Source of the DNA: Fidelibacterota bacterium
GTDB taxonomy: Bacteria > Fidelibacterota > Marinisomatia > Marinisomatales > Marinisomataceae
DNA length: 38,612 nucleotides
NCBI GenBank assembly: GCA_019654715.1
Contig: BPEH01000005.1
Span: forward strand, 1 to 38,612
Direction: 5' to 3'
Part shown: in pieces, positions 725 through 33,939 of the stretch
Layout of the letters: each line of letters begins with the position of its first letter
How positions within the stretch are numbered: the stretch's first letter is position 1
Notes under the pieces: model-generated
Databases searched by the model: none
What the model was told of the DNA's origin: nothing
What the model saw: the letters and a program-made list of their open reading frames with translations, nothing else
Position numbers and translations under genes: made by a program

Positions 725-1827
<1,103 letters not shown>

Positions 1828-1848
1828 TAGGTAGAAAGAAAGGAAAAT

Positions 1849-30976: not shown

Positions 30977-31441
30977 ATGGAAAAATTAATACCATGTAGA
31001 TTCCATGTCGAAGTTGGATCAGTACTCAAAGCGGAAGGTATGAGAACAACGAAACAACGTTTAGACATATGGGATGAGTTATGTTCAACTGATGATCACA
31101 GAGATATTGAAACTATTCTACAGTCTTTAATCAAAAAGAAAATCAATGTATCAAGAGCTACCCTTTATAGAACAATTGATGTATTTGTTAAACATGATTT
31201 GTTAAAAAAAGTCTCTCTTGGGAACGGCAAAATTCTTTATGAACATAATAAAAAATCTATCAGCCCAAGACATGATCATATTTTATGTGAGGACTGCGGT
31301 GAAATCTTCGAATTTTTTGATAGTAATATTACTATTTTAGAAAATGAAATTGCTAAAAAATTAAATATGAAAGTTACACAAAGAACTCATCAACTTTCTG
31401 GTATATGCAATAGTAAAAATTGTTCTCATCTCACTAATTAA
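30977..31441 (+). CDS. Fur family transcriptional regulator
   Basis: The 154-residue protein has the winged-helix domain (TKQRLDIWDEL, INVSRATLYRTIDVFVKHDLLKK) and the Fur dimerisation and metal domain (HDHILCEDCGEIFEF with CxxC, then CNSKNC near the C terminus). The CxxC and CxxxC pairs are consistent with a structural zinc site. Whether it senses iron, zinc, manganese or peroxide is not shown by the sequence, and no Fur box was identified nearby. It lies 26 bases after the helicase and 7 before the next gene. Confidence 0.9.
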   Translation: MEKLIPCRFHVEVGSVLKAEGMRTTKQRLDIWDELCSTDDHRDIETILQSLIKKKINVSRATLYRTIDVFVKHDLLKKVSLGNGKILYEHNKKSISPRHDHILCEDCGEIFEFFDSNITILENEIAKKLNMKVTQRTHQLSGICNSKNCSHLTN

Positions 31442-31448
31442 TTTTTAA

Positions 31449-32330
31449 ATGAAATCTGTTCTTATCAATAATTTGCTTTCTGATGTGAAACTTCAAGGCT
31501 TTTACTTATGCATTGAAAAAAAACTGCGAAAGAAAAAAGATGGATCTCCTTATATTGATTTACTACTTCAGGATAAATCTGGTATAATAAGAGGAAGGAT
31601 TTGGGATAATGTTCATATACTGACTAAAAAATTTGATGTTGGAAATCCGGTTGCTTTAAAAGGTATAACTTATAGTTATGGAGAGAATCTTTTTATAAAA
31701 ATAAAAAATATTAATAGAGCATCTATTGATAGATATAAAAAATATGGTTTTGTACCATCAGATTTAATTCCTACTTCAAAACAAAATGTGAAACAATTAT
31801 GGACACAACTCCAGAAAGAAATTAAAATAATTTCAAAGCCACACTTTAAGAAGTTAGTCACTAAAATTTTATCAGATCATAAACAAAAATTTCAAATTTA
31901 TCCTGCGAGTATTGCATATCACTATAATTATCAACATGGTCTTTTAGAACAGACTGTTTCACTGATGAAAATTGCTAGATTATTAGCAAAAAATTATGCA
32001 GTGGATTCTAATTTGTTATTAACAGGAGCTTGCCTTCATCAGATTGGCAAACTTTACTCAATTAATATTGGTTTTTCTGCTGATAAAAGCATTGAAAAAC
32101 AATTAGTTGGAAATGCTATTTTATCAAGAGATGTTGTTAATGAGTATATAAGAGAAATAAAAACTTTCCCGAAAGAGGATAAAATTCAACTAGAACATTT
32201 GATTTTATCTTATCAAGGCAGAAGAGAATGGCAAAGTCCAGTGGAACCGCAAACAATAGAAGCAATGCTATTGCATACAATCAATTATATGGATTCTCAG
32301 GTAAATTTCATGAGTAGAAATGAAAAATAG
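31449..32330 (+). CDS. YhaM-like OB-fold/HD-domain protein with degenerate HD site
   Basis: The 293-residue protein matches the architecture of the 3'-5' exoribonuclease YhaM: an N-terminal OB-fold (about residues 10-90, DLLLQDKSGIIRGRIWDN) and a C-terminal HD domain (about 135-285). Every block is recognisable but the metal ligands are replaced: the HD pair reads LHQIGK instead of LHDxGK, LLEQT replaces a His, VGNA replaces GH, SYQG replaces SHHG and INYMDS replaces xIDNxDA. EWQSPVEPQTIEAMLLH is well kept. I infer a protein that binds RNA or DNA but no longer hydrolyses it. It overlaps the next gene by 11 bases. Confidence 0.82.
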   Translation: MKSVLINNLLSDVKLQGFYLCIEKKLRKKKDGSPYIDLLLQDKSGIIRGRIWDNVHILTKKFDVGNPVALKGITYSYGENLFIKIKNINRASIDRYKKYGFVPSDLIPTSKQNVKQLWTQLQKEIKIISKPHFKKLVTKILSDHKQKFQIYPASIAYHYNYQHGLLEQTVSLMKIARLLAKNYAVDSNLLLTGACLHQIGKLYSINIGFSADKSIEKQLVGNAILSRDVVNEYIREIKTFPKEDKIQLEHLILSYQGRREWQSPVEPQTIEAMLLHTINYMDSQVNFMSRNEK

Positions 32331-33939
32331 ATTACTTATTATATTCTTTTTTCAAAATATTTTCGCACAACATAATATTTCTTATGATTTATCAGATCAA
32401 TTTGGTATTAATCTTAGCAATAATCAGATTATATGGAATACAGATCAGAAATTTGATAATCTGTTGATTGATTCATCCTCAAAATATTTTAAACAAAAAT
32501 TTAGCTCCTTTGATTTCAATGATATCAATATTGATTCAACTTACACAAAAAGCAAATTTTCTTATGAATTTGGCGATTATGGTTTGGATGTTCTTAATGT
32601 TGGTTTAAAAAAACATTCTCAAGATAGTGATTTCCAGTTTTTAGGATTTAAAAAGAGTTTTTTTGGGAATTATTCTGAGTTTGCCAATTCAAATAGCGGT
32701 CCTTTAAGCCTTTTGTATCAATTTGATTATTCAAAGCATTTTGAGAATCATTCCTTAGTTGTTTCAGTAGGATACTTTCAGACAAGTTCAAATTTCTTAT
32801 TTGATAATCTTGAAGATAACTCGAATAATAAAGAATTTTCTGATTTTTCATCTTTTACTTTAATTGATAGATTTAAAAAAGGTCTATGGAACTATACATT
32901 TCAATTCAATCATATTACTAAGCATGATCAACTCTTTTTATTGGAAGAATTATTAGATAACGATATTGATATTGATAGAAACATTATCACAATCAATGCA
33001 AATAATGATAAAAATGTTTCAATTGATTTATCTTTAGATAATAAATTTTATTTTGACTTAAGATCACATCAAACAACTCATGATGTTTTACAATCTTATA
33101 CTCAAAATTCTCTCCATCTAGTTAGTAGCAATAGTTTTAAATCATCAGAGATTAAATATGGGTTTGATTATTTTATGGGAAATTCTCCTTATAAAAGTGA
33201 TGGTAGTTATGGATCTGAAAATGAAGAAGTGTTACCAAATTTTTATTATGAGCTAAATCATGATTTTGGTAATCAGACTTATTCTCTATCAATGGATATT
33301 ATGAACAAGCCAACAACATTTTTGTTTGATAATTCCAATTACCAAGAAATTGAAACTTGGAATTCAGTTAATCTACACTATAACATTTATTCTGGTTTCA
33401 TTTTAGAAACCAATCTAAAATGGACTGAAGTATCAAATTTAACAGCATATAATAAAGCTGATAATTCTTTTACTACTCTTTCTGATGATTTATTATCATT
33501 GAAGACAAAATTTGGAATTTCATTTAATAATCATAATTTAAATTTTGCATATTACCACAATTTCTATGATAGTATTATAAGTTCAAATAGATCAGATATT
33601 TTAGATATTAATTATGGATTTAAAACATCTTTTGTCAATGAAAAGCTAGGTGTAAATGGAAAAATTTCTTTAACCTATCTTTCAGAAAATAATTCCGATT
33701 TCTCCTTCGATTATTTTAGAAATCTTCCATCTGTTGGAAATAGTTTTATAAATGATGAAAGCTATAGTGTTGGTATAAATCTTGATATTTCTATTGGTGA
33801 TGTTATTTTAACATTTCGTGCTAATAATTTATTGCATCGTTTACCTGTCAATGGAGATTATTCAATAGAAAGACATGAATTATTTAATCCAATCAACAGT
33901 TTAATGTCATTTGGTATTTTATGGGAATTTGATGATTAA
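32320..33939 (+). CDS. Predicted outer-membrane beta-barrel-like protein, unknown function
   Basis: I do not recognise this 539-residue family. A signal peptide is clear (MKNRLLIIFFFQNIFAQ, likely cleaved after AQ). The mature part is rich in Asn, Ser, Asp and aromatic residues, with alternating hydrophobic and polar strands (for example FSYEFGDYGLDVLNVGLKKH and YTFQFNHITKHDQLFLL), typical of outer-membrane barrels of FCB bacteria. There is no plug, no TonB box and no lipobox. It ends in ILWEFDD. The start overlaps the YhaM-like gene by 11 bases, which implies translational coupling. An all-beta secreted protein that is not a barrel is the alternative. Confidence 0.7.
   Translation: MKNRLLIIFFFQNIFAQHNISYDLSDQFGINLSNNQIIWNTDQKFDNLLIDSSSKYFKQKFSSFDFNDINIDSTYTKSKFSYEFGDYGLDVLNVGLKKHSQDSDFQFLGFKKSFFGNYSEFANSNSGPLSLLYQFDYSKHFENHSLVVSVGYFQTSSNFLFDNLEDNSNNKEFSDFSSFTLIDRFKKGLWNYTFQFNHITKHDQLFLLEELLDNDIDIDRNIITINANNDKNVSIDLSLDNKFYFDLRSHQTTHDVLQSYTQNSLHLVSSNSFKSSEIKYGFDYFMGNSPYKSDGSYGSENEEVLPNFYYELNHDFGNQTYSLSMDIMNKPTTFLFDNSNYQEIETWNSVNLHYNIYSGFILETNLKWTEVSNLTAYNKADNSFTTLSDDLLSLKTKFGISFNNHNLNFAYYHNFYDSIISSNRSDILDINYGFKTSFVNEKLGVNGKISLTYLSENNSDFSFDYFRNLPSVGNSFINDESYSVGINLDISIGDVILTFRANNLLHRLPVNGDYSIERHELFNPINSLMSFGILWEFDD

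Follow-up and report, generated by a model that had tools for sequence, protein, structure and literature searches.

A YhaM-like protein with a dismantled HD metal site, fixed in a marine genus of Fidelibacterota: a predicted pseudo-exoribonuclease

HD-fold pseudo-hydrolases are already a known kind of protein, for example in RelA of the RSH superfamily. According to the accessible text of one study, the pseudo-hydrolase HD domains of RelA serve as regulatory modules (PMC8012599). In RelA, the HD domain without hydrolysis adjoins a working synthetase within one enzyme.

The closest described relative of the protein analyzed here is the 3′-5′ exoribonuclease YhaM (NF010007, COG3481), with the solved chains 9h3f and 9o7t. 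As far as the accessible text of the respective report goes, wild-type YhaM of S. aureus is Mn(II)-dependent and can trim by as little as a single nucleotide, the variant D193A is nearly inactive and still binds RNA, and HD mutants are poor at forming hexamers (PMC11347170). The same text states that the HD site is invariant among YhaM homologues. The deposited YhaM/Cbf1 sequence of PDB entry 9o7t has HA, not HD, at the dyad, with the alanine at the position changed in D193A; this alanine was presumably engineered as a substrate trap. In a literature search whose scope left most subscription papers outside, no papers were found on dead YhaM proteins, on YhaM in Marinimicrobia, or, by those terms, on degenerate HD-domain pseudoenzymes.

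The window, i.e., the whole stretch of 38,612 nucleotides that was analyzed, stems from a genome of 628 kb and 65% completeness and carries a yhaM-like gene (Table 1). The gene starts with ATG, forms a single open frame without internal stops, and overlaps the next gene by 11 bases at its 3′ end. In a profile search, the protein matches the NCBIfam family NF010007 (YhaM) with an E-value of 6.9e-38 and 130.5 bits, which is under the curated cut-off of 460 bits. This cut-off is not discriminating in the phylum, since the three intact orthologues that were scored reach only 184–209 bits. Sequence matches to the solved YhaM chains 9h3f (6.4e-31) and 9o7t (2.3e-26) cover residues 16–291. The HD model PF01966 matches over its cut-off (E 8.6e-6), and the OB model PF01336 is under cut-off in the window protein (E 1.8e-4) and over it in the orthologue L009 (9.8e-7). 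Both parts expected of a YhaM by descent, the N-terminal OB fold and the C-terminal YhaM-type HD fold, were thus found. Orthology to intact YhaM-type genes is indicated by one match per genome of the genus, by the genus forming one fully supported clade, and by a gene order in common with the intact genus g17 of f11. The likeness to YhaM comprises the OB and HD architecture over the whole length, 27–28% identity in the HD part, and the same predicted fold. Unlike YhaM, the window protein has lost most of its metal ligands, lacks the C-terminal tail (about 30 residues) of intact orthologues, and is predicted to have a non-cutting role. The tail is missing in the whole genus (291–295 amino acids, compared to 314–348 in intact orthologues), so that the change exceeds a swap at the metal site. 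The protein is therefore a YhaM by descent and fold without the defining catalytic feature, for which the name exoribonuclease is unfit.

Table 1. Features of the yhaM-like locus in the window
Feature	Position	Strand	Evidence
fur-family regulator, upstream neighbor, common to f11 g17 and f16 loci	30977..31441	+	PF01475 E 3.2e-27; synteny
yhaM-like gene, predicted pseudo-exoribonuclease, 293 aa	31449..32330	+	ORF, profile and sequence matches
N-terminal OB-fold domain, residues about 14–90	31488..31718	+	AlphaFold2 strands E14-28 to E80-90; 3e0e match; PF01336
HD-fold domain, metal site dismantled, residues 151–290	31899..32318	+	PF01966 E 8.6e-6; VIA to 9h3f_A
Q168, former first HD-domain His (H168Q)	CAG 31950..31952	+	20/20 in genus
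H197-Q198, former HD dyad, H kept, D198Q	32037..32042	+	20/20 in genus
N222, former GH His (H222N)	AAT 32112..32114	+	20/20 in genus
Y255, former first His of SHH/SHQ (H255Y)	TAT 32211..32213	+	20/20 in genus
N279, former Asp of IDN (D279N)	AAT 32283..32285	+	N 18/20, S 2/20 in genus

The ligand positions, which we take to be the six of the HD superfamily (H…HD…H…H…D), are occupied by Q168, H197, Q198, N222, Y255, and N279 instead of H, H, D, H, H, and D. Five of the six are replaced, each of them in the DNA, by residues which are all polar, and H197 is the only ligand position retained. The preliminary description, which had seen a YhaM-like protein with nearly all HD ligands lost, was correct and even understated the case. 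Its remark that the change from HD to HQ needs two substitutions agrees with the codon of Q198 (CAG, 32040–32042), which is changed at positions 1 and 3. Its reading of SHH to SYQ holds for the first histidine (H255Y) only, as the second position (Q256) is no loss: glutamine is the commonest residue there in the intact orthologues of the phylum. An alternative register with intact ligands elsewhere was rejected, because the motifs align ungapped with 9h3f and with intact orthologues and no HD dipeptide occurs anywhere in the window protein.

The genus of the window (labeled f1) was searched in 24 genomes, of which 20 contain an orthologue; the four others are 56–81% complete. The gene is present in all eight genomes with at least 90% completeness. 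The 19 further orthologues come from separate genomes and are 62–84% identical to the window protein. All 20 carry Q, H, Q, N, and Y at the first five ligand positions, only position 279 varies, and none has an intact metal site. The frames are full-length in 20 of 20, including L020, where a flagged stop is the natural end of an open frame of 292 amino acids. A sequencing error, already dismissed in the preliminary description on account of the two substitutions and the intact frame, was rejected together with an assembly error, because the same residues recur in 20 separate genomes. A second, intact copy was also rejected, with one match per genome at E-values up to 1e-5. The codons at fixed residues vary synonymously (CAA/CAG 14/6 at position 168, and CAA/CAG 12/8, AAT/AAC 16/4, and TAT/TAC 17/3 at further positions).

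Selection was estimated by pairwise Nei-Gojobori dN/dS for pairs with dS of 0.1–1.5. Within the genus, the HD domain has a median of 0.054 (39 of the 190 pairs were usable), the OB domain one of 0.13 (68 pairs), and the linker one of 0.21 (66 pairs). Four intact groups show HD-domain medians of 0.049, 0.074, 0.102, and 0.077 on 5, 4, 4, and 3 pairs, respectively, a comparison that holds for the order of magnitude only, as the pair sets differ by domain and each intact group is small. Purifying selection on the rebuilt HD domain is strong, about as in the intact enzymes. Nine positions are invariant in the genus and unlike the consensus (at least 80%) of 87 intact orthologues; five of them lie at or beside the metal site (H159Y, H168Q, D198Q, H222N, and H255Y), and the remaining ones are T29K, K50R, E204S, and G226S. 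The invariance of the lost-ligand columns taken alone is not significant (hypergeometric 0.15), with 66 of 140 HD columns invariant in the genus.

In addition, every one of the 20 orthologues in the genus retains H197, H250, E271, H276, and D282. These five residues could form a smaller or shifted metal site that gives the protein a different phosphohydrolase activity, but this seems very improbable. H250, E271, and D282 look structural, as nearly every orthologue, intact or broken, retains them apart from the eroded f16 proteins described below, and in the accessible text on S. aureus YhaM the single change D193A already removes nearly all activity (PMC11347170).

The structure of the window protein was predicted by AlphaFold2 using 42 orthologues. 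The model has a mean pLDDT of 89.8 with a poorly predicted loop at 213–218. Its best structural match is YhaM itself (9h3f_A, VIA Z 27.1, rmsd 2.0 over 183 residues, model residues 108–293), and the next HD protein is 2pq7 with Z 12.4; most entries in the Foldseek and VIA lists are OB folds, and the HD part is barely covered beyond these two entries. The N-terminal part of the model matches OB folds of the RPA type with Z of about 13 (3e0e, Z 13.3). Accordingly, the YhaM fold is predicted to be kept. The earlier suggestion of a conserved fold with a dismantled metal site thus finds orthologue alignment, selection analysis, and structure prediction in agreement; the nucleic-acid-binding or scaffold role that it proposed is an inference.

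Across the phylum, a match was found in 203 of 245 genomes, of which 165 were examined; the 38 matched genomes left out comprise three fragmentary ones from the order of the window and 35 from outside it. With the added contig L028, which is identical to G076 over the tree columns, 166 rows were obtained. The tree was built from 151 orthologues and 9h3f after removal of ten columns at or near the metal site, and 15 eroded f16 rows were left off. It holds 88 intact rows (including 9h3f), 62 broken, and two undecided. The intact or broken state requires at least 11 changes on this tree, with starred branches forcing nine. Counted by other definitions, at least two of the six ligands are lost in 46 of 149 rows (at least seven changes) and the HD dyad in 49 of 149 rows (at least eight changes). 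A single ligand is lost in 16 of the 62 broken rows, and some of these proteins may still be active. In the order of the window, 98 genomes were scored and 59 of these are broken, including the 20 of its genus; from outside this order, the tree has just two broken rows, G139 and G189. Close canonical orthologues, which would have spoken for a misreading of the site, are not found in the genus. Other genera do have intact orthologues, of which the nearest is about 42% identical to the window protein, and the loss is therefore derived and not a misalignment. Beyond what had been noted before, the loss is thus fixed in a whole genus and recurrent across the phylum. The invariance of the HD site in YhaM homologues, as stated in the accessible text of PMC11347170, fails in this phylum, and an automatic annotation as exoribonuclease or HD hydrolase would mislabel a whole marine genus together with many of its relatives.

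The losses are of several types. The genus of the window has lost five ligands. In f9, f10, f3, and f14, which form a clade of 10 rows, the aspartate of the HD dyad is changed to G, A, or S and the other five ligands are kept. This clade (L072–L077 and others) includes genomes of 2–3 Mb, so that ligand loss is not solely an effect of streamlining. In f15 and f2 (five rows), the first histidine is changed to Ser and the last aspartate to His. Other combinations occur in f11 (g15, g16, part of g19, g20, and g21) and in f13 (g26, g27, g32, g33, and one row of g36). Finally, in f16 the genus g39 is intact (six rows) and seven other genera are eroded (15 rows). For the eroded protein L051, the fold is predicted to be unchanged (pLDDT 90.7, Z 19.7 to 9h3f), based on an alignment that included intact relatives. 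The f16 g40 orthologue in G162 (L056) is split into two overlapping frames at about 1474–2305, which is either a real frameshift or an assembly error. In G168 (L057, f16 g44), an OB-only yhaM orthologue lies at the syntenic place (1501–1833, minus strand); the HD domain is absent, the gene ends in a stop, and the ATG of a DUF6580 gene follows 34 bases after this stop.

The gene order was compared between these lineages. A uvrD-type helicase gene and fur lie upstream of yhaM in the six compared loci of the genus (L002, L003, L006, L008, L012, and L019), in three intact f11 g17 loci, and in all 15 eroded f16 loci, which identifies the latter as true orthologues. Other genes are found upstream in f11 g19, f11 g22, and f16 g39, as well as in the broken L028 (f11 g20), whose downstream genes are in common with the window. 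Several intact loci (e.g., L030, L032, and L036) and L028 have an opposite-strand GNAT gene before yhaM and an ECF-transporter-like membrane gene after it, both of which are missing in the genus of the window; these Pfam identities derive from the L028 copies, and the ECF match is under cut-off.

The small, incomplete assemblies of the genus (0.4–1.0 Mb), its missing C-terminal tail and two missing neighbor genes, and the erosion in f16 with its split frame (L056) and OB-only gene (L057) could be taken as signs that genome streamlining is eliminating the gene. For the genus of the window this explanation is scarcely credible and already contradicted by the selection data, as dN/dS is about 0.05, the frames are complete, and no nearly complete genome lacks the gene.

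Instead, the important job of the YhaM-like protein in this group is probably something other than cutting, since the ligands are lost, strong selection keeps the protein, and comparable losses arose independently on many occasions across the phylum. On balance we favor a conserved YhaM-type pseudo-exoribonuclease, most likely a non-cutting binder of single-stranded RNA 3′ ends. With the di-metal site gone, RNA would not be hydrolyzed by the HD mechanism. The OB fold would grip the single strand, and the remodeled HD pocket may seat the RNA 3′ end via hydrogen bonds and not via metal. Transcripts would then be protected or presented instead of trimmed, and 3′-5′ decay would be left to PNPase, which is present in the genus. 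Non-cutting RNA binding is supported by the S. aureus variant D193A, which in the accessible text binds RNA with little activity (PMC11347170). The proposed behavior of the window protein resembles this variant in binding RNA with almost no degradation; the variant differs in being one laboratory change, compared to five natural changes and a selected, fixed pocket. Given the poor assembly of S. aureus HD mutants reported there, the ligand-less protein may not form a YhaM-like oligomer.

The HD fold could also be kept as a protein interaction module, e.g., for the degradosome or PNPase, with nucleic-acid contact being secondary. The HD domain is indeed the most constrained part of the protein in the genus, and regulatory pseudo-hydrolase HD domains are described in the accessible text on RelA (PMC8012599). 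The neighboring domain in RelA is catalytic; the window protein has an OB fold and no other catalytic domain. Such a scaffold is unlikely, as no partner is known and the OB fold is kept in every lineage examined, surviving alone in f16 g44 (L057).

A further explanation is binding of single-stranded DNA in replication or repair, comparable to the Cbf1 activity of staphylococcal YhaM. It would fit the PDB molecule name of 9o7t (“Cmp-binding-factor 1 | YhaM”), the closeness of the OB fold to RPA-type domains, and the helicase gene and fur upstream in the genus, in f11 g17, and in eroded f16. However, an OB fold gives no indication whether RNA or DNA is bound, and the helicase link is not universal, as the deviating loci in f11 g19, f11 g22, f16 g39, and L028 show, which makes this explanation quite improbable.

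For RNA binding, the charge of the OB domain gives weak support. Its mean net charge per 100 residues is 6.0 in broken lineages, or 4.5 without the genus of the window, compared to 1.55 in intact ones. It rises with loss in about 5.7 of nine independent pairs and changes in the opposite direction in 0.1 (median p 0.03); correction for GC3 raises the median p to 0.125. The charge shifts of the whole protein and of the HD domain have median p-values of 0.25 and 0.22.

The recurrence of the losses suggests that YhaM is indispensable in the phylum for binding rather than for cutting. A more far-reaching and tentative idea, which we regard as doubtful, is that RNA binding was the indispensable function ancestrally, and that the cutting site was given up independently on about a dozen occasions. 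This would have given rise to a class of naturally dead RNA-binding hubs similar to Hfq, with an OB-only protein as the final stage in one lineage. The phylum offers a natural experiment in which binding was separated from cutting repeatedly and independently in a poorly understood RNase, and a non-nucleolytic role of YhaM becomes directly testable through these natural losses.

Regarding other 3′-5′ exoribonucleases, PNPase is found over cut-off in the genome of the window, and some match to the PNPase model occurs in 123 of 130 genomes of the order. RNase R was not found in any of the 24 genomes of the genus, where its model gives nothing beyond short matches close to the S1-type end, so that compensation for yhaM by RNase R was rejected there. 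Of the two enzymes sought, PNPase is thus the only one found in the genus. RNase R is patchy across the order (130 genomes): outside the genus, genomes with and without it number 16 and 23 among the intact and 23 and 16 among the broken, counts in which relatedness is ignored.

Finally, the start of the next gene (32320–33939), which encodes a protein of 539 amino acids without any Pfam match, overlaps the stop of yhaM in the window. This protein is conserved downstream of yhaM in many members of the phylum, down to 23% identity.
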